Source of the DNA: Propylenella binzhouense
Lineage (GTDB): Bacteria; Pseudomonadota; Alphaproteobacteria; Rhizobiales; Afifellaceae
Length of the DNA stretch: 46,530 nucleotides
NCBI RefSeq assembly: GCF_009866965.1
Contig: NZ_SPKJ01000025.1
Location: 1-46,530 of the forward strand
Reading direction: 5' to 3'
Both the position numbers and the translations under genes were made by a program. The notes under the pieces are model-generated. The model made no database searches. It was not told the origin of the DNA and worked only from the letters and a program-made list of their open reading frames with translations. Shown in pieces: positions 8,750 to 27,170 of this stretch; position 1 is the first letter of the stretch, and the number at the start of each line of letters is the position of its first letter.

Positions 8750-11441
8750 GGGGCTGCGCGACGAGGATCGCCGCGGGAAAGCGGGCGAGCACCTCGCGGA
8801 GCGCGAGCGTGCCGGCCGAGCCGTGCTCCGCGCCCGTCACCGCGTCCCGCCAGGTCCGGCCGGCGAGCGCCGCCGGCAGCACGACCGCCGCGTCGCTCCA
8901 GGCCCCCGGAGGGACGAGCGGCAGATCCGCGCTCCCGACGAGCGCGGTGGCAAGGCGGCTCGCCACCACGATCACCGCGTCCTCGCCGTGGCGGCGGGCG
9001 AAGGCGAGGGCATGGCCCTCCGCGCGGCCGGCAAGATCGAGCGGAAAATATTCCCCCTTGCCGAAGAGGTCCGGCCGCTCCCGCCTCAGCGCGAGCCCGG
9101 ACCGCATCAGGCGGAGCTTAGGTGCGCCGGAGCGCCAGTCGGCGAGCGGGTCGCCGCCCGGGGCCTCCGCGGCCGTCAGGAGCGCCTGCAGCGCGTCGTA
9201 GGCGACCGGGCGCCGGTTGTCGGGGTCGACCAGGCTCAGATCCCAGGTCTCGGTGCCCTGGTAGATGTCCGGCACGCCCGGCGCGCAGAGCTTGATCGCG
9301 AGCTGCGAAAGGCCGTTCAGCGCGCCGGCCGTCCAGATCGGCGCGCAGGTGGCCGCGAAATCGGCTGCGAACCAGTGGTCGGGCGCGAGCGCGCCCTTCA
9401 CGAACCGGCTGACCGCATCCTCGTAGGTGGGCGACGGCGTCGTCCAGCTCGTGCGGAGCTTCGCCTCGCGGACGACCTTGGTCATGTAGGCGTCGAGCCG
9501 CTCGGCAAGGGCCGCCAGGCCGTCGCGGTCGCGCGGATCGAGATCCGCCGGCCAGGCGCCTGCGAGGGCCTGATAGAACAGCCATTCCATGGCGGGTTCG
9601 GGCGCCGTGCCGTCGTCGAGCTCGGTCCTGAGGCCCGAATTCACGACGCGCCAGCGCTCCGCGGCCGCCGCCCAGCGGCCCGGAACCTCGCCGAGCACGT
9701 AGAGCCGCGCACGCGCATCCTCGCCGCGCTTGGTGTCGTGCGTCGCGGTGGCGCTGAGGCCCCCGGGCTGGTCGCCGAGCCGCGTCCGCATCGCCTGATG
9801 GAAATCTTCGCGTGAGGCCCCGAAGCGATCGGGCTCGCCGCCGACCTCGTTCAGCGCGACGAGCCGGTTGAAGCGGTAGAAAAGCGTATCCTCCAGCGCC
9901 TTCGCCATGACCGGGCCGGTCGTCTGCTGGAACCGGGTTGCGAATTCCAGTGCGGTCGCCTGGCTTGCCGGATCGGCGAAATCGAGCCGCAGCATGCGGC
10001 CGACGAAGTCGATGGCGCTCTCGTCCTCCACCTCCCGGCCGGTCCTGGCCGCCGCCATCGCATTCTCGATGAGCGCGAGATCCTCCGCGGCCGGCCCCTC
10101 GACGTTCACGTAGGTGCGGTAGACCGGGAGCGCGGCCGCGATCTCCATGACGGCGCGGCGCAGGCTGTCCGCCCCGATGTCGCGCGTCATCGGATCGCCC
10201 GCGGAAAGCGTGCAGCCGAGCTGCTTCAGGAATTCGAGCTCGCCGGCAAGGTTTCGCGACAGGATGCGGCGCTTGGTGTCGAGCACCATCGCCTCGTAGT
10301 CGACCGCGCTGCCGATGAAGCGCTCGTACGCCGCCGTCGCCTCCGCCGCACGGGCGGGATCCATGAAGAGCCCGGCGAGCGCGGTGATGAACTCGTAGCC
10401 GGTGGTGCCGGCGATCGGCCAGTCGTCGCGGAGCGTCTCCCCCGGCCCGAGGATCTTCTCCACGAGCAGATAGAACGGCGCTTCGGACCCGATCGCGCCC
10501 TGCAGCCGGACGAGATAGGTCTTGGGATCGGCCAGGCCGTCTATGTGGTCGAGGCGGATGCCGTCGACCGCCCCCTCGGCGACGAGCCGGAGCAGCAGGG
10601 CATGAACGTCCTCGAACACCTTCGGCCGCTCCACCTTGATGCCGACGAGGTCGGCGATCTCGAAGAACCGGCGATAGGTGAGCGTCTCCCGCGCCGCGCG
10701 CCAGAAGGTGAGGCGCCAGAACTGGTCCTCGTGCAGGTCATGGAGCGCGGCGTGATCGGCGACGACGGCATCGATCGCGTGCCGGACCCGCTCGGCAACC
10801 GCCCGGTCGGAAACGAGCCGGGCAAGCTCCGCCTTCAGCTCCGGCGCCGTATCCGGGTCGGCGATCGCGAAGCGCCGCGCAAGCTCCGGGAACGACTCCT
10901 CCTCCAGCCTGCCGAGGATGCGCGCATAGGAGGGCGGCGCGATCGGCAGGCGGAGATCGCCATAGGAGAAGGAGACGCCGCCATCCGCCTCGTCGAGATC
11001 GAGGCCGAGCTTCCCGTCCGCGAGCGCCCGGCCATAGGCTTCCCCGAGCACCGGAACGATCAGCTTCGGCGCGCTCCAGTCGATGTCGAAATGGCCGGCG
11101 AACGGACTCGCCTGGCCCCATTCCAGGACGTCGCGCCACCACGGATTGAAGGGCGAGGCACCCATGTGGTTCGGCACGAAATCGAGGATCAGGCCGATGC
11201 CTGCGCTCCTCAGCGCCGCAGCGAAGGCGAGGAAGCCCTGTTCGCCGCCGATCGCGGGTTCGATCTCGCCGAAATCCGCGACGTCGTAGCCGTGGGTCGA
11301 GCCGGGCGCCGCCCGGAAGATCGGGGAAGCGTAGACGTGCGACACGCCGAGCCGGGCGAAATAGGGCGCGAGCGCGGCCGCCTTCCCGAAGTCGAAGCCG
11401 TTCCGGAACTGGAGCCGGTAGGTGGCGGTCGGGAGGGTCAT
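8742..11441 (-). CDS. treY: Malto-oligosyltrehalose synthase (maltooligosyl trehalose synthase)
   Basis: The 899-aa GH13 enzyme turns the reducing-end alpha-1,4 bond of a maltodextrin into an alpha,alpha-1,1 bond, giving a maltooligosyl-trehalose that TreZ then cuts. Visible motifs are HGYDV (about 50-54), DFVPNH (87-92), GIRLDHIDGL with nucleophile Asp298, and LVEKI with Glu328. The start MTLPTATYRLQF is typical of TreY. The ATG at 11441 overlaps the malQ stop as ATGA. It is the last gene of the eight-gene operon and runs into dctM, which converges on it with an 8-base overlap. Confidence 0.96.
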   Translation of the reverse strand: MTLPTATYRLQFRNGFDFGKAAALAPYFARLGVSHVYASPIFRAAPGSTHGYDVADFGEIEPAIGGEQGFLAFAAALRSAGIGLILDFVPNHMGASPFNPWWRDVLEWGQASPFAGHFDIDWSAPKLIVPVLGEAYGRALADGKLGLDLDEADGGVSFSYGDLRLPIAPPSYARILGRLEEESFPELARRFAIADPDTAPELKAELARLVSDRAVAERVRHAIDAVVADHAALHDLHEDQFWRLTFWRAARETLTYRRFFEIADLVGIKVERPKVFEDVHALLLRLVAEGAVDGIRLDHIDGLADPKTYLVRLQGAIGSEAPFYLLVEKILGPGETLRDDWPIAGTTGYEFITALAGLFMDPARAAEATAAYERFIGSAVDYEAMVLDTKRRILSRNLAGELEFLKQLGCTLSAGDPMTRDIGADSLRRAVMEIAAALPVYRTYVNVEGPAAEDLALIENAMAAARTGREVEDESAIDFVGRMLRLDFADPASQATALEFATRFQQTTGPVMAKALEDTLFYRFNRLVALNEVGGEPDRFGASREDFHQAMRTRLGDQPGGLSATATHDTKRGEDARARLYVLGEVPGRWAAAAERWRVVNSGLRTELDDGTAPEPAMEWLFYQALAGAWPADLDPRDRDGLAALAERLDAYMTKVVREAKLRTSWTTPSPTYEDAVSRFVKGALAPDHWFAADFAATCAPIWTAGALNGLSQLAIKLCAPGVPDIYQGTETWDLSLVDPDNRRPVAYDALQALLTAAEAPGGDPLADWRSGAPKLRLMRSGLALRRERPDLFGKGEYFPLDLAGRAEGHALAFARRHGEDAVIVVASRLATALVGSADLPLVPPGAWSDAAVVLPAALAGRTWRDAVTGAEHGSAGTLALREVLARFPAAILVAQPLS

Positions 11442-13312
11442 GCCTGTTTCGGGCGCTCCTCGCGAACCGCGCGGCAGATCGCGCGGTAGAGCGCGGTCTC
11501 GACGAGGCGCTCGACCGGCACTTCGAGCTTCATCTGCCAGTTCGGATGCTCGTCGGTGGTGCCGGGTATGTTGACCTGCTCGATGGCGCCGACGAGGTCG
11601 TCGAGGGGGATCGCGAAGAGCCGCGACGGCGTGCGGGCCATGAACCGGTGGAGCGCGACCGCGACCTCGGGCGGCAGGGCGCAAGGCGCGTCGACGTCGC
11701 CCCGCATCATCGCCTCGGCCTCCGCCGGCAGGAGGCCGGCATCCGCGAGTGCGCCCAGCATGCGCCTGCGCTCGTGCGCCCGGCTCTCCTGCTGCGCGGG
11801 AAGGTCCTCCGGCGCGTTCATCCCGATCGCCGCGCGGGTCTCCAGATCGTGCCCGGCCCACCAGCCGGCGAGCGGGGGCAGGTCGTGGATCGAGATGCAG
11901 GCCATCGACGCATGCGGATAGGCGTCCGGGGGCAGGAAGAAATCGTCTCTCCGCTCGAAGAAGAAGACCCGGTACGAATGGATGTCCATCGCCGCCATCA
12001 CGTCGCGGAACCCTTCCGGGACGACCCCGAGGTCCTCGCCGATGACGATCGCGTGGCGCGCCTGCGAGATCTCGGCGAGGCTCTGCAGCATGTCCTGGAA
12101 CGGATAGCGGACATAGACGCCGTCGGCGGCGGAGAAGCCGGACGCGATCCAGTAGAGCCGGTAGAGGCTCATGGCGTGGTCGATGCGCACGGCCCCGGCG
12201 CGGCGCAGAACGTCGTCGAGCGCCGTGCGGTAGGGCTCGAAGCGCCGCTGCACCAGGGTCGCCGGCGAAAGCGGCGCAATGCCCCAGTCCTGGCCGGCGG
12301 CATTGAAAAAATCGGGCGGCGCGCCGATCCGGGCATCGGGCACGGTGAGCGCGGGGTCCGACCACGTCGCGGAGCCGTCGGATGCGACGCCGACCGCCAG
12401 GTCGACATAGAGGCCGATCCGCATTCCGGCCGCGATCGCCCGCCGCTGCGCCTCCGCCAGCTGCCGGTCGGCGATGAACTGCAGCCAGGCATGGAACGTG
12501 ACCCTGTCCTCGTGCTCCTCGGCGAAGTTCCGCACCGCGAGGCTGCCGTGATCCTGGAACTCCGCGGGCCAGCCGTGCCAGCCGCTCCAGCGCCCGTCGG
12601 CCACCATCCGCTCGGAGATCGCCTCGAACAAGGCATGGAGATAGAGCGGCTGCCCGTGCTCGGCACAGAAGGCCTGGAAGGCGGATACGTTCGCCTCGTC
12701 GTCGCCGAAGGCTTCGAAGAGCGCCTCCAGCGCCCGCTTCTTCGCGAGCGCGACGAGCGGATAGAGAACCCGGTCGGACGCCCGCAGCTCGTCGAGCTCC
12801 GCGGCATCGAGGTCGAGCGCCGCGGCGCCCGGGACGCCGTCGACGGCGATGTAGAGCGGATTGAGGAATTGCCGGTTCGACGGCGAGAACGGGCTGAAGC
12901 GCCGGGCGTCCGCCAGGAAGAGCGCATGGAGCGGGTTGACGCCCACGAAATCGGCGCCCTCGGCGGCCGCGATCTCCGCAAGCCGGGCGAGATCCTCGAA
13001 ATCGCCGATCCCCCAGTTGCGCCCGGAGCGGAGGGCGTAGACCTGGCACGTGACGCCCCAGGTCCGGCCGTCCTTCAGCCAGGGCGGCACGAAGCAGCGG
13101 ATGCCGGCCGGGGCCTCCATCGCGCCGAAATCGATCGGCATGGCGCAGCGGGCCGCCTCCGCGATGTCCTGCTCGGTCTCCGTCCAGACGCCCATGGCGC
13201 GGAGGATCGCACGCTTCGCCTCGTCGCGGACGTCGCGGCGCTTGCCGTCTATCCCGACATAGGTGGATTCGATGCCGTAGAGACCGGCAAGCCGGTCGAG
13301 ATCGGGGTTCAT
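11438..13312 (-). CDS. malQ: 4-alpha-glucanotransferase (amylomaltase, GH77)
   Basis: The 624-aa disproportionating enzyme moves maltodextrin segments between chains and releases glucose. GH77 marks are WGVTCQVYALRSGRNWGIGDF near residue 90, the nucleophile Asp378 in VRIDHAMSLYRLYW, the acid/base Glu426 in VIGEDLGVVP, and SIHDLPPLAGWW. I start it at the ATG at 13312, which overlaps the treZ stop as ATGA, giving the bacterial-type MNPDLDRLAGLYGI. In this operon it would resize oligosaccharides released by GlgX and TreY/TreZ. Confidence 0.94.
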   Translation of the reverse strand: MNPDLDRLAGLYGIESTYVGIDGKRRDVRDEAKRAILRAMGVWTETEQDIAEAARCAMPIDFGAMEAPAGIRCFVPPWLKDGRTWGVTCQVYALRSGRNWGIGDFEDLARLAEIAAAEGADFVGVNPLHALFLADARRFSPFSPSNRQFLNPLYIAVDGVPGAAALDLDAAELDELRASDRVLYPLVALAKKRALEALFEAFGDDEANVSAFQAFCAEHGQPLYLHALFEAISERMVADGRWSGWHGWPAEFQDHGSLAVRNFAEEHEDRVTFHAWLQFIADRQLAEAQRRAIAAGMRIGLYVDLAVGVASDGSATWSDPALTVPDARIGAPPDFFNAAGQDWGIAPLSPATLVQRRFEPYRTALDDVLRRAGAVRIDHAMSLYRLYWIASGFSAADGVYVRYPFQDMLQSLAEISQARHAIVIGEDLGVVPEGFRDVMAAMDIHSYRVFFFERRDDFFLPPDAYPHASMACISIHDLPPLAGWWAGHDLETRAAIGMNAPEDLPAQQESRAHERRRMLGALADAGLLPAEAEAMMRGDVDAPCALPPEVAVALHRFMARTPSRLFAIPLDDLVGAIEQVNIPGTTDEHPNWQMKLEVPVERLVETALYRAICRAVREERPKQA

Positions 13313-15150
13313 GCGTTGGGCAGGGCTTTCGCGCCCTGTTCCAGGTAGAAGGCGACCGAAAGAGGCGGCAGCTTTCCCTCGCGCAGCGCGGGATCGGCCC
13401 CCGGCCGCCAGTCGAAGATCAGACGGCCGTCGGGAACGTCCGGCACGGGGCAGACCTCTTGCTCGAAATTGGCGTAGAGCGACAGGCGCGAACCGTCCCC
13501 CAGGAGCCAGCGGACGAGGAAGGCGTCGCCGTCGAGCATCTTCCACGCGCCGGCGTTTCCGCCGATGCCGGCGAGCCGCGGCGCGATCTCGTCGCGCCTG
13601 AGCTTCAGAAGCCGCTTCACAAGGTCGAGCCGCCGGGCATGCGCGGTGTCGAACCTCAGGCTCCAGTCCATCCGCGACGACGTGAAGGTCGTTTCCGCGT
13701 TCGGATCGGGGATGCGCGCGCGGTTCTCCTCGCTCGCGAATTGCGGCCACTTGCGGAACTCGTTGCGGCGCCCTTCGCGGACCGCATCGCCGAGTTCTCC
13801 GTGGAAATCCGTGAAGAAGCCGAAGGAGCGCGTCTCCGCCCATTCCTCCCCCATGAAGAGGAGCGGGATCTGCGGGCTCAGAAGGAGGATCGCCGTCAGG
13901 AGCTCGAGCATCCGCCCGGGCGCGAGCATGGTGAGGCGCTCGTTGAAGGCGCGATTGCCGATCTGATCGTGGTTCTGGAGAAAGTTCACGAAGGCGGTCG
14001 GCGGCAGGATCGCGCTCGGCTCGCCGCGCGGCTCGTTGTCCCGGAAGACGGACGGCTCGCCCTGGAACACGAAGCCGGTGGCGAGCGCCTTGGCGAGCTT
14101 CGCGGCGTGCTCGCGCGTGTAGTCGGCGTAATAGCCTTCGCTCTCATGGGTCGCCATGACATGCGCCGCGTGGTGGAAGTCGTCGTTCCACTCGCCGTCG
14201 TAGAGCCGGATCCGGCCCGCCTCGTCGCGGACGTGGAGCCGGGTGATGTTGCGGTCGTCCTCGGTCGTCAGGTGGATCTCGCGATCGGTGATGCGGCTCC
14301 GCACGGTGAGCGCCAGCTCCTCCAGAAGCGGCTCCTCCGTGTCCTGGTCGATCTGGTCGATCGCATCGAGGCGGAGCCCGTCGAAGCGGAACTCCTCCAG
14401 CCAGTAGAGCGCGTTCTCGATGAAGAAGTCGCGGACCGGCGGCTTCTCGTAGGCGATGGCGCCGCCCCAGGGCGTCTGGCGCTCGGGGTGGAAGAAGTCC
14501 GGCGCGACGAGATGCAGGTAGCTGCCGTCCGGACCGAAATGGTTGTAGACGACGTCGAGGAACATCATGAGCCCGCGCTCGTGCGCGGCGTCGACGAGCG
14601 CCTTCAGCCGCTCCGGGCCGCCATAGGCGGGGTGCGGCGCATAGAGCAGGACCCCGTCATAGCCCCAGCCCCGGTTTCCGCCGAACTGGGCGACCGGCAT
14701 CAGCTCGACCGCGGTCACGCCGAGCTCGGCCAGGTAGTCGAGCTTCTCGTTCACGCCGTCGAACGTACCCTTCCCGGTGAAGGTGCCGGTATGCAGCTCG
14801 TAGAAGACCGTCTCGCCCCAGGGACGTCCCTTCCAGTCGGCCGTCCTCCAGACATGGGCCTTCGGATCGACGAGACGGCTCGGGCCGTGGACGTCGCCGA
14901 TCTGGGCCCGCGCCGCAGGGTCGGGAATGGCGAAGCCGTCGGGCAGGACGAAGCGGTAGCCGCCCCCGACCGGCACGGCATCGGTCTCGAGCTCGAACCA
15001 GCCGCCCTCCGCCTGGCGCATCGGGAGATCGCCGCGCCCTTCGGCCCGCAGCGTCATCGCGGAATGCGACGGAGCCCAGATCCGGAAGCGCGCTCCGCCG
15101 CCTTCGGTCGGAATCGCACCCCAGCTCGTCTCGAAGCGGAAGCGGGTCAT
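13309..15150 (-). CDS. treZ: Malto-oligosyltrehalose trehalohydrolase
   Basis: The 613-aa GH13 enzyme hydrolyses the maltooligosyl-trehalose made by TreY to free trehalose. An N-terminal CBM48-type beta domain (about 1-95) precedes the barrel, which shows DVVYNHFGPDG, nucleophile Asp262 in GLRLDAIDQI and Glu297 in TTEDDRN. The ATG at 15150 overlaps the glgX stop as ATGA. TreY and TreZ together make trehalose from glucan without ATP. Confidence 0.95.
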   Translation of the reverse strand: MTRFRFETSWGAIPTEGGGARFRIWAPSHSAMTLRAEGRGDLPMRQAEGGWFELETDAVPVGGGYRFVLPDGFAIPDPAARAQIGDVHGPSRLVDPKAHVWRTADWKGRPWGETVFYELHTGTFTGKGTFDGVNEKLDYLAELGVTAVELMPVAQFGGNRGWGYDGVLLYAPHPAYGGPERLKALVDAAHERGLMMFLDVVYNHFGPDGSYLHLVAPDFFHPERQTPWGGAIAYEKPPVRDFFIENALYWLEEFRFDGLRLDAIDQIDQDTEEPLLEELALTVRSRITDREIHLTTEDDRNITRLHVRDEAGRIRLYDGEWNDDFHHAAHVMATHESEGYYADYTREHAAKLAKALATGFVFQGEPSVFRDNEPRGEPSAILPPTAFVNFLQNHDQIGNRAFNERLTMLAPGRMLELLTAILLLSPQIPLLFMGEEWAETRSFGFFTDFHGELGDAVREGRRNEFRKWPQFASEENRARIPDPNAETTFTSSRMDWSLRFDTAHARRLDLVKRLLKLRRDEIAPRLAGIGGNAGAWKMLDGDAFLVRWLLGDGSRLSLYANFEQEVCPVPDVPDGRLIFDWRPGADPALREGKLPPLSVAFYLEQGAKALPNA

Positions 15151-17261
15151 TTCGGCTCCTGCCCGGATGTCGCCCCAGGGGCCTTTGCACCGAAGAGAAG
15201 AAGGCACCGCCCACCGAGCTCGATCTCCGTCTCCGCCGGGACCGGATCCGCCTCCGGCCGGACGAGACCCTCCGCCGTGTCGACGAGGAGCTGCCAGCTC
15301 TCCGCGGTCGCGGCCGAAGGCAGCTTGAACCCGATCGGCTCGTGATAGGCGTTCGACAGCAGCAGGAGGCGGTCGGCCTCGCCGCAGAGGAGCATTCCGA
15401 CCACCTTGGCGAGCGGGTCCGACCAGGCGCCGGCATCCATCTCCTCGCCGTCGGGCCTCAGCCACACGACGTTGCGCGTCCCGTTATCGTCGATGGCCTG
15501 GCCGTGGACGTACCTGTTCTGCCGCAGCAGCGGTTCGGCGGCGCGCAGGCCGATCAGCCCGTGCGCGAAATCGAAGAAGGCCTGGTCGCGCGGCCCGATA
15601 TCCTCCCATTTGAGCCAGGCGATCTCGTTGTCCTGGCAATAGGCGTTGTTGTTGCCGAACTGCGTCCGTCCCACCTCGTCGCCCATCAGGATCATCGGCG
15701 TGCCCTGCGACAGGATCAGCATGGCGAGGAGGTTGCGCCGCATGCGGTCGCGCAGGTCGAGAATCGCCTCGTCCTCCGTCGGGCCTTCCGCCCCGCAGTT
15801 CCAGCTGCGGTTGTCGTCGTGGCCATCGCGGTTGCCCTCCTCGTTCGCCTCGTTGTGCTTCTCGTTGTAGGAATAGAGGTCGAGAAGCGTGAAGCCGTCA
15901 TGGGCGGTGACGAAGTTGACGCTGGCCCAGGGCTTCCGGCCGCGCTTCTCGAAAAGGTCCGAAGAGGCGAGGAGCGCCCGCGAGAAGGCCGGAAGCAGGC
16001 CGTCGTCGCCCTTGGCGTAGCTGCGCATCTCGTCGCGGTAGCGCCCGTTCCACTCCGCCCAGCCCGGGGGGAAGTTGCCGACCTGGTATCCGTTCGGACC
16101 GAGATCCCAGGGCTCCGCGATCATCTTCACCCGCGAGAGCACCGGGTCCTGCCGGACCACGTCGAAGAAGACCGCGTTCGGCTCGAAATTGTCGTACTCG
16201 CGCCCGAGCGAGCTCGCGAGGTCGAAGCGGAACCCGTCGACGTGGCACTCCTCCACCCAGTAGCGGAGCGAATCCATCACCATCTGGAGCACCCGGGGAT
16301 GGCGGAGATTGACCGTGTTGCCGCAGCCGGTCGTGTCGAAATAGTAGCGGGGGTCCTGCGCCAGCAGGTAGTAGCTCGCATTGTCTATGCCGCGGAAGGA
16401 GAGCGTCGGGCCGAGATGGTTGCCTTCCGCGGTGTGGTTGTAGACCACGTCGAGGATGACCTCGATGCCGGCCGAATGCAGGCGGCGGACGGCGAGCTTG
16501 AACTCGTGGAGGTCGCCGCCCGGCGAGACGTAGCGCGGCGCCAGCGAGAAGTAGTTGACGGTGTTGTAGCCCCAGTAGTTGGTGAGTTTCTTCGCCACGA
16601 GGTAGCGGTCGTCGAAGAAGGCCTGCACGGGCATCAGCTCGATCGCCGTCACCCCGAGCTTCACGAGATGATCGACCACGCGCGGGTCGGCGAGGCCGGC
16701 GAGCGTGCCGCGGATCTGGTCGGGCAGCTCGGGATGGAGGGCCGTCAGCCCCTTCACGTGCGCCTCGTAGATGATGGTCTTCGACCACGGCGTACGGGGC
16801 CGCCGATCGTCTCCCCAGGTGACCGCCGTGTCGATGACGACGGATTTCGGCATGACGAATGCCGAATCGCGCTTGTCGAAGGAGAGGTCCTCGCGCGGCG
16901 AACCCACCCGGTAGCCGAAATGGGCGTCGTGCCAGCGGAGATCGCCATAGAGCTCCTTGGCATAGGGATCGATCAGGAGCTTGTTCGGATTGAAGCGGTG
17001 GCCCCGGCGCGGATCATAGGGACCGTAGACCCGGTAGCCGTAGAGCTGGCCCGGCCGTACGTCGGGAAGATAGCCGTGCCAGACCTCGTGCGTGTATTCG
17101 GGCAGCGCGATGCGCTCGAGCTCCCGCTTGCCCTTCGGATCGAACAGGCAGAGCTCGACCTTCTCGGCATTCGCGGAAAACAGCGCGAAGTTGACGCCGA
17201 ACCCGTCCCAGGTCGCCCCGAGCGGATGGGGGGACCCGGGTTCGACACGAAAATTCGCCAT
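15147..17261 (-). CDS. glgX: Glycogen debranching enzyme (GlgX/TreX type)
   Basis: The 704-aa GH13 isoamylase-type enzyme removes alpha-1,6 branches. CBM48 at the N-terminus (PLGATWDGFGVNFALFSANA) is followed by the barrel with DVVYNHTAEG, nucleophile Asp347 in FRFDLASSLGR and Glu383 in MIAEPWDLGPNGYQVG. The ATG at 17261 fits homologues; an in-frame extension upstream would overlap glgB and does not look like protein. There are 13 bases between the glgB stop and this start, the only real gap in the operon. Linear chains it releases feed TreY. Confidence 0.95.
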   Translation of the reverse strand: MANFRVEPGSPHPLGATWDGFGVNFALFSANAEKVELCLFDPKGKRELERIALPEYTHEVWHGYLPDVRPGQLYGYRVYGPYDPRRGHRFNPNKLLIDPYAKELYGDLRWHDAHFGYRVGSPREDLSFDKRDSAFVMPKSVVIDTAVTWGDDRRPRTPWSKTIIYEAHVKGLTALHPELPDQIRGTLAGLADPRVVDHLVKLGVTAIELMPVQAFFDDRYLVAKKLTNYWGYNTVNYFSLAPRYVSPGGDLHEFKLAVRRLHSAGIEVILDVVYNHTAEGNHLGPTLSFRGIDNASYYLLAQDPRYYFDTTGCGNTVNLRHPRVLQMVMDSLRYWVEECHVDGFRFDLASSLGREYDNFEPNAVFFDVVRQDPVLSRVKMIAEPWDLGPNGYQVGNFPPGWAEWNGRYRDEMRSYAKGDDGLLPAFSRALLASSDLFEKRGRKPWASVNFVTAHDGFTLLDLYSYNEKHNEANEEGNRDGHDDNRSWNCGAEGPTEDEAILDLRDRMRRNLLAMLILSQGTPMILMGDEVGRTQFGNNNAYCQDNEIAWLKWEDIGPRDQAFFDFAHGLIGLRAAEPLLRQNRYVHGQAIDDNGTRNVVWLRPDGEEMDAGAWSDPLAKVVGMLLCGEADRLLLLSNAYHEPIGFKLPSAATAESWQLLVDTAEGLVRPEADPVPAETEIELGGRCLLLFGAKAPGATSGQEPK

Positions 17262-17274
17262 GCAGATCGAACTC

Positions 17275-19497
17275 CTAGCGGGCGAGCTCGAAGACGAGTG
17301 TGCCGAGTGGAGGAAGCGTGAGGTCGAGGGAGACGGGGCGGCCGTGCCAGGGCACCGGCTCGGCGGAAACCGCCCCGCCATTGCCGACATTCGAGCCGCC
17401 ATAGACCGCAGCGTCGGTGTTCAGCCGCTCGATCCAGGTGCCTGCGGCCGGCGCCCCGACGCGGTAATGGTGCCGGACGACCGGCGTGAAGTTGCAGATC
17501 ACCAGGGCCGGCGGGTCCTCCGGCCCGCCCTTCCGCAGATAGGCGTAGACGCTTTGGTCGGCATCGCCCGCCTCGATCCACTCGAAGCCCTGCGGATCGG
17601 CGTCGCGCACATGGAGCGCACGGCAGCCGCGATAGAGGCGGTTCAGGTCGCGGACCAGGCTCTGCAGCCCGGAATTCTGCGGATCGGCCAGCAGGTGCCA
17701 GTCGAGGGAGCGGTCGTGGCTCCATTCGCGGTCCTGGCCGAACTCGCCGCCCATGAAGAGCAGCTTCTTGCCCGGATGCGTCCACATGAAGGCGTAGTAG
17801 GCGCGCAGATTGGCGAATTTCTGCCAGCGGTCCCCCGGCATCTTGCCGAGCAGCGAGCCCTTTCCGTGCACCACCTCGTCGTGGCTGAGCGGAAGAACGA
17901 AGTTCTCCGTGAAGGCGTAGAGCAGGCCGAAGGTCATCTCGTGGTGATGGTGCTTGCGGTGCACCGGCTCCTTGGACATGTAGTCCAGCGTGTCGTGCAT
18001 CCAGCCCATGTTCCATTTGTAGCCGAAGCCGAGCCCGCCCATGTCGACCGGGCGGGACACCTGCGGCCAGGCCGTGGATTCCTCGGCCATCGTGGTGGCG
18101 CCGGGCGCATCCGCGAAGACCCGCGTGTTCATGGTCTTCAGGAACGCGATCGCCTCGAGGTTCTCGCGTCCGCCATGGACGTTCGGAATCCATTCGTCGG
18201 CGGGCCGGCTGTAGTCGAGATAGAGCATCGAGGCGACGGCATCGACCCGCAGGGCGTCGATGTGGAAGCGCTTCAGCCAGAAGAGCCCGTTGGCGAGCAG
18301 GAAGTTCGACACCTCGCGGCGCCCGAAATTGTAGATGAGCGTGTTCCAGTCGCGGTGGAAGCCGAGGCGCGGGTCCTCGTGCTCGTAGAGCGCCGTGCCG
18401 TCGAAGCGGGCGAGCCCGTGCGCGTCCGTGGGGAAATGGGCGGGCACCCAGTCGATGATGACGCCGATGCCCGCCTGGTGCAGCCGCTCCACGAAGCGGG
18501 CGAAGCCCTCCGGCGGGCCGTGGCGGCTCGTCGGCGCGAACAGGCCGATCGGCTGATAGCCCCAGGAGCCGGAGAACGGGTGCTCGCTCACCGGCATGCA
18601 TTCGACATGGGTGAAGCCGAGATCGCAGAGATAGGGGACGAGTTCGTCGGCGATCTCGTCATAGCTCATCATCTGGTCGCCGTCCTTGCGGCGCCAGGAT
18701 CCGAGATGCAGCTCGTAGATGGAGATCGGCGCGTCGAGGGCGTTCCGCCGCTGCCGGTTCGCCATCCATTCGTTGTCCTGCCAGTCGTGCTCCGGCAGGC
18801 CGTGGACGATGGAGGCGGTCGAAGGGGGCTGCTGCTGGGCGAAGGAGACCGGGTCCGCCTTGAGCGGCAGCAGCTGGCCCTGCGCGCCGAGGATCTCGAA
18901 CTTGTAGAGCGCGCCCGGCCCGAGACCGGGGATGAACAGCTCCCAGAGGCCGGCCTCGATGCGCTTGCGCATCGGGTTCCGCCTCCCGTCCCAATAGTTG
19001 AAGTCGCCGACGACGCTGACGCGCTTCGCGTTCGGAGCCCACACCGCGAAGCTCACCCCCGCGACCCCGTCGATGGTGACGGGATGGGCTCCGAGCCGCT
19101 CGTACATCTCGCGGTGCGTGCCCTCGGCGAGCAGGTGGACGTCGAGGGCCCCGAGGACGGGCGGAAACCGGTAGGGATCCTCGGCCTCCCAGACGCGCTC
19201 GCCCGCCGTCATCCGCAGGCGGTAGCGAAACAGGCGGCGCCGGCGCGGGACCGGCCCGGCGAAGAATCCCGCCGGGTGCAGGAGCTCGAGCTCCGCGCAC
19301 CGCTTGCCGGAATCCGCATCGACGACGCTGACGGTCTCCGCGCCCGGCCAGAAGACGCGGACGGTGATCGGCTCGTCCCCGCGGGCATGCATTCCGAGAA
19401 GCGCGAACGGATCGCCGTGGCGGCCCTGCACGAGCGCTTCGACGGCGCGCGGATCGGGCCTCCAGGCAATATCTGCCGACGCTTCCGCCACGTTCAT
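17275..19497 (-). CDS. glgB: 1,4-alpha-glucan branching enzyme
   Basis: The 740-aa enzyme introduces alpha-1,6 branches. It has the long form: an N-terminal beta domain (about 1-110), CBM48 ([21 protein letters not shown]) and the GH13 barrel. Nucleophile Asp419 ([17 protein letters not shown]) and acid/base Glu472 ([10 protein letters not shown]) are spaced 53 residues apart, as I recall for E. coli GlgB. The ATG at 19497 shares a base with the treS stop (ATGA overlap). With GlgE it forms the glucan-building half of the operon. Confidence 0.97.
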
Positions 19498-22400
19498 CAG
19501 GCCACCTTCGTCTCAAGAATGTCGAGGACTCCCCTCACCGGAATGGTGAGCCAGGCCGGACGGTTCCCCGCCTCGTAGCCGATTTCGTAGAACCCTTTTT
19601 GAAGCAGGAAGAGCGCGAGCAGCCCGTCGCGCGTGGCGGCATCCTGGGGAACCGAGGCGACCCCCTCCACCGTCGCCCAATAGGCTGCGAGGAATTCCTC
19701 GACCGAGCGGTCGCGCCACGCGAAGGCCCTCGCCGTCACGGCCTCGCCCGGATCGCCGCGGCGGAGACGGAACCGGTCGAGCGCGGCCCAGGCCGCATAG
19801 TCGAACGAACGCAGCATGCCCGCAACGTCCCGGAGCGGCGAGGCCTTGGCCCGCCGTTCGGCGAGGCTGCGCTGCGGCTCGCCCTCGAAGTCGATGATCA
19901 TCACGTCCGCCTGCGCGACGAGCACCTGGCCGAGATGGTAGTCGCCGTGGATGCGGATCTTCGCGCCCGACGGGGCCACCGCGCGGAGCGCGGTCAGCCG
20001 GTCGAGAACGTCCTGCCGTCCCTCGAGAAGCCGGTCGACCGATGCGAGGACGGCGTCGGGCAGGACGGAACGCGCGCGCTCCAGCGCCGCGATCGTCTCG
20101 CGCGCCTCGAGCGCCGCCTCCTCCGCCCAGCGCCCGATATCGGCCGCGGTGACGGGCTCCGGCGCGAAGGCCGGGTCGCCGGCCCCGGTGCTGAGCGCGG
20201 CATGCAGCTCGCCGGTCCGCCTCCCGAGCAGGCTCGCGAGGTCGAGCGGGAAGGAGAAGATCGCGGCCGGCGCCTCGCCGGCAGGCGCGAGCTCGGCGCC
20301 GAGCGCCAGGTCGTCGAGCTCGCGGTCGAGCGCGTCGATGATCACGCTCCAGGCGTCGCCCTGGTTGAGCACGAAGCCGAAGGCGGAGGCGAAGGCGACC
20401 GGCTCGCCGTCGTCCGGGACGTATTCGGCGGCGCCGAGATAGGCCGGGGTGTTCGGGTATCCGGCCCTTTCGGTCAGGAACCGCGCCATTTCGAGCTCGG
20501 GCTGCTCGCCCGGGCGGAGACGGCGGTAGACCTTCAGCATGATCTCCTCGCCGAGGATGATCGAGACGTTGCTCTGCTCGACGGCGACCGGCCGCACCGA
20601 CTCGACGTTCTCGATCTCCCGCAGGCGGTCGGTGGCTTCGTAGCGCAGCCTGCCGCCCGGAGCGGCGGCGTCCGTGCCGGCCTTCATGGCCGCGACCACG
20701 CTGCGGGCGAAGTCCTCGTCCCCGGCGGCATCGACGAGCGCCCCGACCTTCGGGCCGGACCGGATCTTGGCGAGCGTGTAGGAGAGCTTCGGCGCGCCGA
20801 AGCGGAGATTGGCTTCGCCCCAGCTGACGCCGAGCGGCAGGAAATAGCACTGGCCGGCGCCGTCGCCGGTCGTCACGTCGGCGATGCCGAGCCGGTAGCC
20901 GGGCGCGAGGTCGCCAAGGCTGCGCAGCGCGACCGACTGGATCTTCTGGCTCTTGCCGGCGAACCAGCGCTGCCGGGCAAGGTATTCGGGCAGGGCATCG
21001 CGCTCGAGATTGCGCAGGTCGCGGCCGTCGAGCGCCCGCTCCAGGCTTCCGCCCGGCGCCGTCAGGGTGACGAATTCCGGCAGCGGATCGGGAGGCGCGG
21101 CATGCCATTGCGGCGCCGCTTCCTGGTCGGCCAGCACGAACCAGAAGAAGCCGTAGGCCGGCAGCGTCAGCATGTAGGGGAGATCGCCGACGGGCGGAAA
21201 CGCGGCCCGGCCGGTGAGCTCGATCGGAACGGCGCCCCGCCAGGGCGAGAGGTCGAGCTCCACCGCCTGCGCGCTCCGCGCAAGGTTGGCGACGCAGAGG
21301 ATGCGCTCGTCCTCGTGCTCCCGGATATAGGCGAGCACCTTCCTGTTGCGCGGATAGAGGAAGGTGAAGCTGCCCCGGCCGAACGCCTTGCGCTGCTTCC
21401 GGACCCCGATCAGGCGCCGCATCCAGTTGAGCAGGGAGGACGATTCGTTCTGCTGGGCTTCGACGTTCACCGCCTCGAAGCCGTAGACCGGGTCCATGAT
21501 GGGGGGCAGGTAGAGCTGCTGCGGGTTCGCCCGCGAGAAGCCGCCGTTCCGGTCGCTCGACCATTGCATCGGCGTGCGCACGCCGTCGCGGTCGCCGAGA
21601 TAGTAATTGTCGCCCATGCCGAGCTCGTCGCCGTAATAGATGATCGGCGTGCCCGGCATCGACATCAGCAGGGCGTTCATGAGCTCGATCTTGCGCCGGT
21701 CGTTCTCCAGGAGCGGCGCGAGCCGGCGGCGGATGCCGAGATTGATGCGGGCGCGGGCGTCGCGCGCATAGGTGCGCCAGAGATAGTCGCGCTCCTCCTC
21801 CGTCACCATCTCGAGCGTCAGCTCGTCATGGTTCCTGAGGAAGATCGCCCATTGGCAGGGATCGGGGATGTCCGGCGTCTGCCGGATGATGTCCGTGATC
21901 GGGTGCCGGTCCTCCTGGGCGAGCGCCATGTACATGCGCGGCATCAGCGGGAAGTGGAACGCCATGTGGCATTCGTCGCCCTCCCCGAAATAGGGCCGCG
22001 TGTCCTCCGGCCACTGGTTCGCCTCGGCGAGCAGCATGCGGTCGGGATATTTCGAATCGAGCTCGGCCCGGATGCGCTTCAGGACCTCGTGGGTCTCCGG
22101 CAGGTTCTCGTTGTTGGTGCCGTCCCGCTCGACGAGATAGGGGATGGCGTCGAGCCGCAGCCCGTCGACCCCCATGTCGAGCCAGAAGCGCATGACGCGC
22201 AGGACCTCCGCCAGAACGCGCGGATTGTCGAAGTTGAGATCGGGCTGGTGCGAATAGAAGCGGTGCCAGAAGAACTGCTGGGCGACGGGGTCCCAGGTCC
22301 AGTTCGAGGTCTCGGTGTCGAGGAAGATGATCCGCGTGCCCTGGTACCTGTCGTCCGTGTCGCTCCAGACATAATAGTTGCGGACCGCCGAGCCGCGCCG

Positions 22401-22823
22401 CGCCAGCCGGGCCCGCTGGAACCACGGATGCTGGTCGGAGGTGTGGTTGATGACGAGCTCGGTGATGACGCGGATGCCGCGCTTATGCGCCGCCGTGACG
22501 AAGCGCCGGAAGTCCCGCATGTCGCCATAGGCGGGGTTGATGGAGCGGTAGTCGGCGATGTCGTAGCCGTCGTCCCTCAGCGGCGACGGATAGAAGGGCA
22601 GCAGCCAGATCGTGTTGACGCCCAGGCTCTCCACGTAGTCGAGCTTCTGGAACAGGCCGTCGAAATCGCCCATCCCGTCATTGTTGCCGTCGAAGAACGC
22701 CTTGATGTGCAGCTGGTAGATGATGGCGTCCTTGTACCAGTAGGGGTCGTTCCGCGTGATTCCGCCATGCTGCTCCTCGCCCTCGTCCGGACCGGGCGCC
22801 ACGCTGATCGTCTTCATGTCCAT
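19497..22823 (-). CDS. treS: Trehalose synthase fused to maltokinase (TreS-Pep2 fusion)
   Basis: The 1108-aa bifunctional protein has an N-terminal GH13 trehalose synthase (about 25-580) and a C-terminal maltokinase domain (about 640-1108). The first half shows Asp225 ([10 protein letters not shown]), Glu267 ([12 protein letters not shown]) and the TreS sequence [18 protein letters not shown]. The second half has the phosphotransferase motif HGDYHLGQ starting at His959 and IIDFEGEP. TreS interconverts trehalose and maltose; the kinase makes maltose-1-phosphate with ATP, the substrate of GlgE. Fusion of the two is known in several phyla. The ATG at 22823 overlaps the glgE stop. The active sites look complete. 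Confidence 0.96.
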
Positions 22824-24877
22824 CAATAGGGCTCTCCCGGCCGAATGAGGCGCCAGATGGCGTAGGGACGCTCGCGCGGGTCGAGCCAGACATGCTGGAC
22901 CTTGCCGCTCCAGGTGAAATACTGCCCCGTCACCAGGTCCTCGCCGTCGATCGAGGCATGGTCCGGAAGCCCGAACTCCCAGAGCGGAACCTCGAAATCG
23001 GCACCTTGCGGATTGTGCGGGTCGAGATTGACCGCGAACAGAAGGAAGTTGTCCTTCGCCTCGGTCATCTTCCCGTAATAGAGGATGTTGTCGTTCCAGG
23101 CGTTGTAGAAGACGAGATTGGCGAACTGCTGCAGCGCGGGATTGTTCCGCCGCAGCCGGTTCATCAGGTGGATGTCCTTCCGGATATGGCCGGGACGGTC
23201 CCAGTCCCAGGCGCGGATCTCGTACTTCTCGGAATTGAGGTACTCCTCCTTGCCGGGGATCGCTTCCGCCTCGCACAGCTCGAAGCCGTTATAGACGCCG
23301 TAATTGCCGGCGAGAGAGGCGGCGAGCACGAGCCGCGTCTGGAAGCCGGCGCGGCCGCTCGTCTGCAGGAAGAAGGGGTTTATGTCCGGCGTGTTGACGA
23401 AGAAGTTCGGCCTCATGACGTGCCGGGCGTCGGTCCGGGTCAGCTCGGTCATGTACTCCGTCAGCTCGGACTTCGTGTTGCGCCAGGTGAAGTAGGAATA
23501 GGACTGCGTGAACCCGACCTTGGCGAGCCGCTTCATCATCTTCGGCCGGGTGAACGCCTCGGCGAGGAAGATGGCGTCGGGATACTTGTCCTGGACCTCG
23601 CGGATCATCCACTCCCAGAACGGCACGGGCTTGGTGTGGGGATTGTCGACCCGGAAGATCCGCACGCCCTTCCCGGCCCAGAACAGCACGACGTCGCGGA
23701 GCGCGTACCAGAGCGAGGGCAGCGCGCCGCGATAGAAGTGGACGTTGACGATGTCCTCGTACTTCTTCGGCGGGTTCTCCGCGAACTTGATGGTGCCGTC
23801 CGGCCGCCAGTCGAACCATTCCGGATGCTCCTTGATCCAGGGATGGTCGGGAGAGCACTGGATTGCGAAGTCGAGCGCGACCTCGAGCCCGTGCTCGCGG
23901 GCCGCGTCGACGAGGCGTGCGAAATCGTCAAAGGTCCCGAGCTCCGGATGGATCGCGTCGTGCCCGCCCTCCTCCGAGCCGATCGCGTAGGGGCTGCCGG
24001 GGTCGGTGGCCGCGGCCGTCAGCGCGTTGTTGCGGCCCTTCCGGTTCTTGCGGCCGATCGGATGGATCGGCGGGAAATAGAGCACGTCGAAGCCGAGATC
24101 GCGCACGTAGGGAAGGCGCGCGATGACGTCGTCGAAGGTCCCGTGGCGCGCCGGATCGCCGGATTGCGAGCGCGGCATCACCTCGTACCAGGCGCTGAAC
24201 ACGGCGGCGCGCCGGTCGACGACGAGTTCGAGCTCCTTCGGATAACGGCTGAGATTCGTCCGCAGGCCGACCCGCTTCATCAGCGCGGCGGCCGCATCGC
24301 CGAGAAGGTCCGCCAGCAGGTCGGCATCGTCGAGCTCGTGCGTCAGGCGCTGGACCAGGCGCTCCATCACCAGCCGGTCGCCCTCGCCGATCCGGTCGCT
24401 CTCCTCGAGCGTACGCTCGATCAGCTCGCGTCCCTCGATCAGCTCGAGGCGCAGGTCCTGGCCGGCGGCATGCTTCTTCGTGGCGCCGTCGCGCCAGGAG
24501 GCGAAGAGGTCGCGCCAGGCGACGATGGTGTAGCGGTAGCGGGTGTTCGCCTCGACCGTCGTCTCCGCCCGCCAGCGGTCGTTCCCGAGCGGGGCCATCC
24601 GGACCTCGCTCCAGTCCTCCTGGTCCGCGCGCCACATGAGAAGCGCCGCGTCGATCTTGTCATGGCCGTCGCAGAAGATGTCCGCTTCCACGGCGAAGCG
24701 GTCGCCGACGGCGGCCTTCGCAGGGAAGCGCCCGCCATCGATCTCGGGCGAGACGCCCTCGATCACCACCCGGTCTGCGGCGAGCGCGAGGAGACGTTCG
24801 TCTTTGATGGCTGGGGAGCGGGATGCGGCGGGCTGGGTCGGCGTCCTAGATTGTTGCAGCGTCGGGCTTGTCTTCAT
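22823..24877 (-). CDS. glgE: Alpha-1,4-glucan:maltose-1-phosphate maltosyltransferase
   Basis: The 684-aa GH13_3 enzyme adds maltose units from maltose-1-phosphate to glucan. Residues 30-130 form the N-terminal beta domain, then a helical insertion, then the barrel with YFPPIHPIGRKNRKGRNN, DFAIQCSPDHPW, nucleophile Asp411 (FRVDNPHTKP) and Glu440 (FLAEAFTRPK). Its ATG at 24877 lies inside otsA, giving a 32-base overlap with the otsA end. No later start is plausible before conserved sequence, so the long overlap is probably real. Together with the TreS fusion and GlgB it completes the GlgE pathway. Confidence 0.95.
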   Translation of the reverse strand: MKTSPTLQQSRTPTQPAASRSPAIKDERLLALAADRVVIEGVSPEIDGGRFPAKAAVGDRFAVEADIFCDGHDKIDAALLMWRADQEDWSEVRMAPLGNDRWRAETTVEANTRYRYTIVAWRDLFASWRDGATKKHAAGQDLRLELIEGRELIERTLEESDRIGEGDRLVMERLVQRLTHELDDADLLADLLGDAAAALMKRVGLRTNLSRYPKELELVVDRRAAVFSAWYEVMPRSQSGDPARHGTFDDVIARLPYVRDLGFDVLYFPPIHPIGRKNRKGRNNALTAAATDPGSPYAIGSEEGGHDAIHPELGTFDDFARLVDAAREHGLEVALDFAIQCSPDHPWIKEHPEWFDWRPDGTIKFAENPPKKYEDIVNVHFYRGALPSLWYALRDVVLFWAGKGVRIFRVDNPHTKPVPFWEWMIREVQDKYPDAIFLAEAFTRPKMMKRLAKVGFTQSYSYFTWRNTKSELTEYMTELTRTDARHVMRPNFFVNTPDINPFFLQTSGRAGFQTRLVLAASLAGNYGVYNGFELCEAEAIPGKEEYLNSEKYEIRAWDWDRPGHIRKDIHLMNRLRRNNPALQQFANLVFYNAWNDNILYYGKMTEAKDNFLLFAVNLDPHNPQGADFEVPLWEFGLPDHASIDGEDLVTGQYFTWSGKVQHVWLDPRERPYAIWRLIRPGEPY

Positions 24878-26393
24878 AGCGGATCGTCTCGGTCCGTGTC
24901 GGAGGCTTCGGGCGCGGCACCAGCTCGCCGCTTATCGATACCGGCTGGGCGTGGCCCCTCCGTGACGCCCGCAGCGCCTCCAGGAAGCGGTTCCGCCACC
25001 AGGCGATGTTCTGCGTCGTCACATTGTCCCAGAGCGCCGCGTGGCGGGCGCGGCGCTCGCCGAGCGGCATTTCGAGCGCGCGGCGGATGGCGTTCGCCAC
25101 GTCCTGCGCGTCGTGCGGATTGACGATGAGCGCCTCTTCGAGCTGCTCGGCGGCGCCCGCGAACTGCGAGAGGACGAGCACGCCCGGATTTTCCGGATCC
25201 TGCGCCGCGACATATTCCTTCGCGACGAGGTTCATCCCGTCGCGAAGCGGCGTCACCAGCCCGACCCGGCTGCGGCGGAACAGGCCGGCCAGCACCGGCC
25301 GCGGCACGGGCCGGTTGATGTAGCGCACCGGCGACCAGGCGAAATCGCCGAAGCGGCCGTTCACCTGGCCCGTCGCGCGCTCCAGCTCCTCCCGGATCGC
25401 GTCATAGGCCTCGACGCCCTCGCGCGTCGGCGGAGCGATCTGCACGAACTGGATCTTGCCGGAATATTGCGGATAGGATTCGAGCAGGGCCTCGATGCCG
25501 TAGACGCGCTCCGGCAGGCCCTTGGAATAGTCGAGACGGTCGACGCCGATGATCAGGTGCCGGGATTCGACGGACCGCGCGATCGGACGCAGGTCCGGGA
25601 GCCGCGCGTTCTTCTCCGCATCGGCCCGGAACTGGACGGCGTCGATGCCGATCGGGAAGGCCTCGATCGAGAGTACGCGGCCGAAGGCCTTGAGGCGGCC
25701 GTCGTCGAGCCGGCGGCACCCCAGGTGCTCCTCGGCGTAGCGGGCGAAGTTCTCCCGGTCGCGCACGGTCTGGAAGCCGACGAGGTCGTAGGCGAACAAT
25801 GTCCGCATGAACTGCGTGTGATGCGGCAGCGCCGAGACGATCTCCGCGGGCGGGAACGGGATGTGGAGGAAGAAGCCGATCGGATTGTTGACCTGCTTCT
25901 GACGGAGATAGGCGGCGAAGGGGATCAGGTGATAATCGTGCACCCAGAGCAGGTCGTCGTCTCGCAGGAGGGGCCGGAGCTGCATCGCGAACCGCTTGTT
26001 CACCGCGAAATAGCAGGCTTCGAGCTGGCTGCTCATCTCCGCCAGGTCGAGCCGGTAATGCAGCAGCGGCCACAATGTCCGGTTGGCGAAGCCGAGATAG
26101 TATTTCTCGTGCTCGTCATGCGTCAGCGCGACGGTCGCGGTCCGCACGTCGCCGTAGCGGGTGACCTCCGGCTCGCGGCGGCGGGCGTCGTCGCTGCGCT
26201 CGCCGCTCCAGCCGAACCATACGCCGCCGGAGTCGCTCAGCGCCTCGCCGACGGCAACCGCCAGCCCGCCCGACTGAAAGCCGGACGACAGGTCCGCCAC
26301 CCGGTTCGACACCACCACCAGCCGTCCGCGCGCGGCATGGCCCTTGCCGGATGAAGCCGCTGGTTCTGCTGATTGCCTGGTCGGCGACGACAT
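24846..26393 (-). CDS. otsA: Trehalose-6-phosphate synthase
   Basis: The 515-aa GT20 glycosyltransferase joins UDP-glucose and glucose-6-phosphate to trehalose-6-phosphate. Visible motifs are RLVVVSNRV near residue 25, WVHDYHLIPFAAYLR, HIPFPPAEI, GVDRLDYSKGLPERV and VTPLRDGMNLVAKEYVAAQ, which form the donor and acceptor sites. The ATG at 26393 has a strong ribosome site (GGGGGAG). It is the first gene of the eight-gene operon, and no trehalose-6-phosphate phosphatase gene (otsB) is in the window, so that step must be encoded elsewhere. A GGAAC-type stress promoter candidate lies about 50 bases upstream. Confidence 0.96.
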   Translation of the reverse strand: MSSPTRQSAEPAASSGKGHAARGRLVVVSNRVADLSSGFQSGGLAVAVGEALSDSGGVWFGWSGERSDDARRREPEVTRYGDVRTATVALTHDEHEKYYLGFANRTLWPLLHYRLDLAEMSSQLEACYFAVNKRFAMQLRPLLRDDDLLWVHDYHLIPFAAYLRQKQVNNPIGFFLHIPFPPAEIVSALPHHTQFMRTLFAYDLVGFQTVRDRENFARYAEEHLGCRRLDDGRLKAFGRVLSIEAFPIGIDAVQFRADAEKNARLPDLRPIARSVESRHLIIGVDRLDYSKGLPERVYGIEALLESYPQYSGKIQFVQIAPPTREGVEAYDAIREELERATGQVNGRFGDFAWSPVRYINRPVPRPVLAGLFRRSRVGLVTPLRDGMNLVAKEYVAAQDPENPGVLVLSQFAGAAEQLEEALIVNPHDAQDVANAIRRALEMPLGERRARHAALWDNVTTQNIAWWRNRFLEALRASRRGHAQPVSISGELVPRPKPPTRTETIRYEDKPDAATI

Positions 26394-26439
26394 TGACGCT
26401 CCCCCTCGCCCGCCGGCGGAGTTCTTAACCGTTGCACAA

Positions 26440-26469
26440 GGGAACTGGATCGGGCTCCCGTCAGTTCCC
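26440..26469 (-). promoter_or_regulatory. EcfG-type (general stress) promoter candidate for otsA, within an inverted repeat
   Basis: Reading leftward, GGAAC is followed after 18 bases by GTT, which fits the alphaproteobacterial EcfG promoter GGAAC-N16/17-CGTT except that A replaces the first base of the -10 CGTT. The site is a perfect 8-bp inverted repeat (GGGAACTG, 14-base spacer, CAGTTCCC), so the same pattern also reads rightward. The inferred leftward transcription start would lie about 40 bases before the otsA ATG. A role as a dyad operator is an alternative. Confidence 0.5.
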
Positions 26470-26615
26470 ACGTCTGCCCCGGGCGGGCGCAAGATTCTGC
26501 CGCACCCCGCAGGGCCGGCGGATCCGCCCCCTGCCTGGCCCGAGATTTCGCGAGAGGCGGATAGGGGGCAGCATAACGTCACGAGCAGGTGGCGCAACCG
26601 CCAAGGGCCGATGGC

Positions 26616-26677
26616 GGAGATGGCATCGGGCGGCTCGGAACCCGCCGCGCGGAATTCCGTTAGCCATCTCCAAGATG
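26616..26677. promoter_or_regulatory. Possible MarR operator: clustered AGATG/CATCT inverted repeats
   Basis: GGAGATGGC at 26616-26624 is perfectly repeated in inverted form as GCCATCTCC at 26663-26671, and the right arm continues as CATCT-CCA-AGATG, a near palindrome at 26665-26677. Palindromes of this size just upstream of a marR gene are often the site of autoregulation. The site overlaps the expected start region of the marR promoter. No binding evidence exists. Confidence 0.35.
26637..26661 (+). promoter_or_regulatory. EcfG-type (general stress) promoter candidate for marR
   Basis: GGAAC at 26637-26641 is followed after exactly 16 bases by CGTT at 26658-26661, a full match to the EcfG consensus with allowed spacing. 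Transcription would start near 26669, about 40 bases before the marR ATG. Confidence 0.6.
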
Positions 26678-26708
26678 CCGCGCTCTGAACCCAACCAGGG
26701 TCACGCGA

Positions 26709-27170
26709 ATGAACGACAGAATCACGTTCGAACTGCTGCAGGCGGCCCGTGCGTACCGGGTCAGGTCGGCCAAACTACTGTCACGTGTCGGCCTTTATCC
26801 TGGGCAGGACAGTCTGTTGAAGCTCCTTCATGAGCGCGGCCCGCTCACGATGGGGGAGGCGGCCGCCGCGCTCTCCATCCAGCCGCCGACCGTAACGAAG
26901 ATGGTCAACCGGCTGTCCGCGTCGGGCCTGATCCGGACCGACGGCGCCACCACCGACCGGCGCAAGACCTTCATCGCGCTCACGGAAGAGGCGAGGGCCA
27001 AGGTCGACGAGATCGAGCGCATCTGGAACCGGCTCGAGGCGGAAGCCCTCGAGGAGGTGGAACTCACCCGCGAGCTTTGCGACCAGCTGGCCACGATCAC
27101 GCGCAATCTCTCGCGGTCCGGACCGGCCGGAACGAGAGAGCACGAGATCGCCCATTCCGACGCCGCCTGA
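26709..27170 (+). CDS. MarR-family transcriptional regulator
   Basis: The 153-aa protein has the MarR layout: N-terminal dimerisation helices, a winged helix-turn-helix at about 35-100 (LTMGEAAAALSIQPPTVTKMVNRL, wing around TDRRKTFIALTEEA) and C-terminal helices. The Asp-Arg-Arg wing motif is present. It is divergent from otsA, so it may regulate itself, the trehalose operon, or both. The ligand is unknown. A GGAAC-type promoter and an inverted repeat lie just upstream. Confidence 0.9.
   Translation: MNDRITFELLQAARAYRVRSAKLLSRVGLYPGQDSLLKLLHERGPLTMGEAAAALSIQPPTVTKMVNRLSASGLIRTDGATTDRRKTFIALTEEARAKVDEIERIWNRLEAEALEEVELTRELCDQLATITRNLSRSGPAGTREHEIAHSDAA

Follow-up and report, generated by a model that had tools for sequence, protein, structure and literature searches.

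Two separate predicted EcfG-type promoters between a trehalose/glycogen gene cluster and a divergent marR gene in Propylenella binzhouense

The otsA and marR genes of Propylenella binzhouense are divergent (ATG at 26393 on the minus strand and at 26709 on the plus strand, respectively), and the 315-nt gap between them quite probably holds two separate diverging promoters for EcfG, the sigma factor of the general stress response in alphaproteobacteria: a strong one directed to marR and a weaker one directed to a cluster of sugar genes. The window, that is the whole stretch of DNA analysed, is 46,530 nt long and comes from a 4.70-Mb genome in 229 contigs. A preliminary description of this DNA had proposed stress control in both directions. 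The sequence largely bears this out, as genes for NepR, EcfG and PhyR are present and both promoters are conserved in relatives. Coordinates of all features are given in Table 1.

Table 1. Features of the otsA-marR locus, in window positions
Feature	Position	Strand	Remarks
malQ-like 4-alpha-glucanotransferase	11438..13843	-	TIGR00217 above cut-off; ORF limits, true start uncertain
treZ, malto-oligosyltrehalose trehalohydrolase	13309..15465	-	ORF limits; true start uncertain
glgX, debranching enzyme	15147..17402	-	ORF limits; true start uncertain
glgB, branching enzyme	17275..19497	-	
treS-maltokinase fusion	19497..22829	-	TIGR02456 and TIGR02457 above cut-off; overlaps glgE end; start chosen by hand
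glgE, maltosyltransferase	22823..24877	-	Pfam GlgE_dom_N_S; ORF overlaps otsA end
otsA, trehalose-6-phosphate synthase	24846..26393	-	First operon gene; Pfam Glyco_transf_20; start chosen by hand
Inverted repeat GGGAACTG-N14-CAGTTCCC, 8-bp arms	26440..26469	.	Holds otsA-facing motif plus the mirror image of that motif
Predicted EcfG-type promoter of otsA operon, variant -10, GGAAC-N17-AGTT	26443..26468	-	Motif match; position kept at operon heads
Predicted EcfG-type promoter of marR, GGAAC-N16-CGTT then AGC	26637..26661	+	Motif match; class in genome-wide excess; Faunimonas counterpart
marR	26709..27170	+	153 aa MarR-family regulator; Pfam MarR E 5.2e-10

Sigma factor machinery and the marR-facing site

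With the starts used here, successive genes from otsA through glgE and the treS-maltokinase fusion to glgB overlap by 1 to 32 nt, the end of one with the start of the next, and glgX, treZ and the malQ-like gene follow downstream of glgB on the same strand. We infer that the cluster, from otsA to malQ, forms one transcript. The otsA product scored 562.1 bits with TIGR02400, slightly below the cut-off of 564.85. Judged by MarR, the nearest named relative is Faunimonas pinastri, and the next two are Afifellaceae MAGs.

A profile search of the genome detected a nepR gene on contig C124 (53.6 bits). The adjoining sigma factor gene matches Pfam in regions 2 and 4, and its product is hit by the PhyR sigma-like domain model as well. 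A PhyR-type domain was matched on contig C180 (88.3 bits). EcfG sites of the strict pattern, GGAAC-N16/17-CGTT, are found upstream of both nepR (C124:26546-26570) and the PhyR-domain gene (C180:12012-12036). At the nepR locus (L204, G000:C124:26546-26758), strict sites face nepR-ecfG as well as the divergent gene, whose start is 484 nt from the site; by eye, we take this neighbour to be sensor-kinase-like. A third match of the PhyR sigma-like domain model (G000:C222:579-734, 36 bits) is possibly a second EcfG-like sigma factor.

Over the whole genome, the strict pattern was matched 84 times versus 28 for the control, the same pattern read backwards, a threefold excess. For the TGTT class, 27 matches were counted versus 16 in the control, and for the AGTT class 29 versus 34 in its reversed control, which is no excess. 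In the window, the looser pattern GGAAC-N15..19-GTT had seven matches for a shuffle mean of 2.78, a number reached in 4 of 100 shuffles. Two further strict matches are located in the window, at 32232-32256 and 46081-46106.

Positions relative to genes were determined for 81 of the 84 strict sites, the three in the window being left out. Of these, 66 were intergenic and 60 were both intergenic and at most 300 nt from a co-directed start, versus 15 and 9, respectively, of 34 control sites (60/81 versus 9/34, Fisher p 2.6e-6); the control was the reversed AGTT pattern instead of the reversed CGTT pattern, and the intergenic counts are rough because the gene caller, a crude home-made codon-usage script, misplaced the otsA start (26318 versus 26393). 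Placement of the AGTT class did not differ significantly from the control (9/24 versus 9/34, p 0.27). When this class was split post hoc by spacer, 5 of 8 N16 sites, 3 of 5 N17 sites and 1 of 11 N18 sites were promoter-placed, which is only suggestive. The distance from the -10 to the start had a median of 42 nt among promoter-placed strict sites; the 47 nt for marR and 49 nt for otsA are close to it. By eye, we take the genes downstream of several strict sites to encode CsbD, PRC-barrel, YciE/DUF892, Ku, superoxide dismutase and similar stress proteins, presumably typical stress genes as in known EcfG regulons.

The GGAAC-N16-CGTT motif that had been described as facing marR is indeed present. 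GGAAC, the 16-nt spacer and CGTT make up the full consensus, 47 nt ahead of the ATG, and the site is a textbook EcfG promoter by prediction. Faunimonas has a counterpart, GGAAC-N17-CGTTAGC, upstream of a 66% identical MarR. CGTTAGC is common to both genomes, and the first GGAAC base is at -66 from the marR start in Faunimonas versus -72 here. Among 80 named marR loci, only that of Faunimonas had a strict site, which was absent in the other 79, and among 27 marR loci from the genome search, four had one, including this locus and Faunimonas. In the five g5 species, whose MarR is 39-42% identical, GGAAC-N16-TGTT is found 90-96 nt upstream of the gene. From the locus counts and the Faunimonas site, the predicted stress promoter of marR would be particular to this corner of the family, and not a property of related MarR genes generally. 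Beyond marR, at 27209-27233 on the plus strand, GGAAC-N16-TGTT lies between marR and an ORF at 27389 and is a possible extra stress promoter; this ORF precedes holin-like and DUF3618 genes.

The otsA-facing site and the heads of related operons

The second motif of the preliminary description, GGAAC-N18-GTT directed to otsA, was recovered as GGAAC-N17-AGTT. The two sites of the gap resemble EcfG (sigma-EcfG/RpoE2) promoters in the GGAAC -35, the spacer of 16-17 nt and, for marR, the CGTT box, in a genome that has NepR, EcfG and PhyR. In contrast, the otsA-facing -10 is AGTT instead of CGTT, a minority variant. Taken on its own this site is weak, because it is off consensus and its class has no genome-wide excess. 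An alternative is that only the marR-facing promoter depends on EcfG, the otsA-facing motif being a chance match and the operon being driven from a promoter further upstream. The lack of excess of the AGTT class speaks for this view, as does the scarcity of EcfG motifs among the otsA relatives examined: a strict site was found within 400 nt upstream in 2 of 30 non-own otsA loci (L125 at -373 and L131 at -67), the 30 being L087 plus the best 29 non-own of the matches in 73 of 150 genomes, a draw that Faunimonas falls outside.

OtsA relatives as such are a less suitable comparison than the head of the GlgE operon. Twelve heads of the otsA/glgE operon, from the source genome and its relatives, were compared, with positions counted from starts extrapolated by protein alignment, so that an error of a few codons is possible. 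Faunimonas has the same otsA-glgE pair, with a 68% identical otsA, and GGAAC-N17-TGTT at -73; an ATG is present there 6 nt ahead of the extrapolated start. In the g5 species glgE is at the operon head, and GCAAC-N16-(C/T/A)GTT is found at -81 to -84. Their five sites align, with CGTT at the -10 in three, TGTT in one and AGTT in one (L174, at the homologous place), each followed by AG. The operon head of G025 has GGAAC-N16-CGTT at -79, and that of G027 has one at -196.

Taken together, GGAAC-N16/17-CGTT was present in 2 of the 12 heads (shuffle mean 0.03) and GGAAC-N16/17-NGTT in 4 (shuffle mean 0.06). The broadened motif, G[GC]AAC-N16/17-NGTT, was found within 250 nt upstream in 9 of the 12, of which eight were between -73 and -84, whereas dinucleotide shuffles gave a mean of 0.14 heads and a maximum of 2 in 1000 shuffles; G[GC] and N were admitted into the pattern partly after viewing the data, and the five closely related g5 genomes do not count as independent. 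Both g3 genomes (G002 and G006) and G014 had no broadened motif within 250 nt of the operon head.

Deviating boxes are documented in other bacteria. In Sphingopyxis, EcfG -10 boxes are flexible, only one other -35 box is as common as or commoner than GCAAC, and -10 mutants that deviate from the consensus give lower output (PMC7083833). For Sphingomonas, the motif is given as GGAAC-N17-20-GTT, with one AGTT example in the table (PMC6599016). The otsA-facing site is held to be a real EcfG promoter because of the conservation at operon heads and of these documented GCAAC and non-CGTT boxes; as a prediction, it is probably the weaker of the two. That the motif arose by chance is unlikely: its position at the operon head is kept, AGTT recurs at the homologous place in L174, and no sigma-70-type match to the consensus of the search program was found in 26300-26800.

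The inverted repeat

Both motifs had been placed within a perfect inverted repeat reading the same both ways. Perfection holds for the 8-bp arms; as a whole, the 30-mer is self-complementary in register at 20 of 30 positions, and it takes in the otsA site only, 167 nt being left between the repeat and the marR-facing promoter. The sequence gives no support for one palindrome serving both genes: the sites are two and separate, and symmetric sites occur in this genome about as often as by chance and, summed over 11 family genomes, less often than the reversed control.

The mirror image of the otsA-facing motif, GGAAC-N17-AGTT, lies on the plus strand at 26441-26466, inside the repeat. Since GTTCC reads GGAAC on the other strand, any EcfG -10 with CC behind it is at once a -35 for that strand, and this complementarity largely accounts for the palindrome at the otsA site. 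Without mismatch, GGAACT-N16-AGTTCC occurs at this sole place in the genome, which led us to reject a repeated genomic element; with up to two mismatches, 61 places were found versus 30 in the control. A terminator was likewise rejected, no terminator-like site being found in 26300-26800.

A reading of the palindrome as a true symmetric promoter, i.e. one site of EcfG-RNA polymerase firing both ways with mutually exclusive orientations, would fit the occurrence of GGAAC-N17-AGTT on both strands (26441-26468). Sigma-70 bidirectional promoters are established, as far as the consulted portions of PMC12825309 and PMC10268837 go, and those of E. coli are pseudo-symmetric (PMC12825309, in its available part). 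The likeness to the E. coli case is that the motif can be read on both strands; the differences are an EcfG-type motif, a symmetry at chance level and a nearer site belonging to marR itself. In a search of open-licence PMC papers for palindromic or bidirectional EcfG promoters, none of the 20 papers listed out of 140 mentioned EcfG, and another such search matched two papers.

The source genome and Faunimonas each have three fully symmetric strict sites versus one reversed control. Here, these three places amount to 6 of the 81 strict sites, versus 4.75 expected from single frequencies, and the sum over the 11 family genomes among the 297 is nine symmetric sites versus 23 reversed controls. 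A symmetric site is present in 161 of the 297 genomes of the order and the asymmetric comparator in 213, a difference that decides nothing because a match on either strand counts for the comparator. In these sequences we see no sign of selection for symmetry. At the locus itself, the plus-strand reading has a poor -10 and is 242 nt from marR, which has a separate consensus promoter. A symmetric promoter is thus very unlikely, and a single shared promoter was discarded as the main reading, given the nearer marR site and symmetric strict sites at chance here.

Two fully symmetric EcfG sites elsewhere in the genome are between divergent genes, L224 (G000:C160:16309-16335) and L255 (G000:C220:15753-15779), and may fire both ways. 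By eye, we take the flanking genes to be superoxide dismutase-like and tautomerase-like at L224, and Fur-like and uracil-DNA-glycosylase-like at L255.

MarR and the predicted stress circuit

The MarR domain and the position divergent from the operon are both present for marR. MarR-family regulators are often encoded divergently from their possible targets, and marR has this arrangement in two genera. In G002 and G006, which belong to the second genus, the adjacent divergent marR recurs with glgE heading the operon. A test of marR-otsA adjacency had indicated no linkage of marR and operon outside the source genome; this was misleading, the operon of these two genomes being headed by glgE. The proposal that MarR acts as a brake stays alive because of this second genus, and gene order hints that MarR may regulate the operon.

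The palindrome or a nearby repeat may be a MarR operator, through which MarR would repress the otsA operon, marR, or both. We regard this as a tentative possibility, to which the gene order in G002 and G006 lends some weight. Two candidate operators are observed near the marR promoter: a perfect 9-bp inverted repeat, GGAGATGGC/GCCATCTCC (26616-26624/26663-26671), brackets it, and CCGATG-N10-CATCGG (26608-26629) is just ahead of it. Against an operator stand the half-sites of 26440-26469, 22 nt apart centre to centre, which is wide for MarR, and the distance of about 18 kb between marR and otsA on one contig of Faunimonas. No 6-bp dyad was common to the source genome, Faunimonas and g3 in a search that kept 67 of 81 upstream stretches. 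A palindromic motif model of related marR upstream regions, built on rows L035-L111 after thinning, scored at best 5.4 here, whereas the median within its own set was 16.9. By shared dyads and by this model, no operator was found for this genome.

Other palindromes were seen in relatives. In the marR-glgE gap of both g3 genomes (L033 and L034), TGACCGCT-N-AGCGGTCA, a perfect palindrome of 17 bp and a candidate MarR operator, lies before marR. Across L035-L111 (Roseibium, Stappia, Kaistia and others) a palindrome near TGTCTTT.AATT.AAAGACA is found upstream of marR, and many of these marR genes are followed by a same-strand membrane protein gene, in a loose single-linkage cluster that touches 71 of 84 loci. 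We presume this membrane protein to be EamA-like.

Under stress, phosphorylated PhyR would titrate NepR and so free EcfG. Free EcfG would start marR strongly, from a consensus -35 and -10, and the otsA-glgE-treS-glgB-glgX-treZ-malQ cluster more weakly, from a consensus -35 with AGTT at the -10. MarR, produced under the same stress signal, would likely regulate the promoter of marR itself and perhaps also that of the operon. In this scheme we infer sigma binding, the transcription starts, the relative strength of the promoters and the action of MarR. A bolder version, in which the EcfG-dependent, stress-induced MarR feeds back on the EcfG-driven operon across a partly symmetric promoter, making an incoherent loop, and EcfG promoters can be inherently two-way, is in our view quite improbable. 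If true, the MarR feedback loop would cap the synthesis of sugar reserves.

Known cases are trehalose genes under EcfG in Bradyrhizobium diazoefficiens (PMC8092242) and, in Sphingomonas melonis, a trehalose/glgX cluster that depends on EcfG (PMC6599016). As in these cases, trehalose and alpha-glucan genes would be under general stress control here, by prediction. Unlike them, the cluster predicted to be under EcfG is GlgE-TreS-GlgB-GlgX-TreZ, with otsA as its first gene and marR divergent from it. The locus also departs from other divergent MarR regulators in that marR carries a predicted stress promoter of its own. The promoters are thus of a known kind, and the locus would add members to the predicted EcfG regulon, MarR being a plausible further layer of control.

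The predicted general stress regulon of the family that contains Faunimonas thereby gains a MarR regulator and an entire trehalose/GlgE-glycogen cluster. At the operon head, the predicted stress promoter keeps its position while the -10 drifts and the first gene changes (otsA or glgE), and these heads may offer a handy natural series for how much deviation in the -10 EcfG tolerates.
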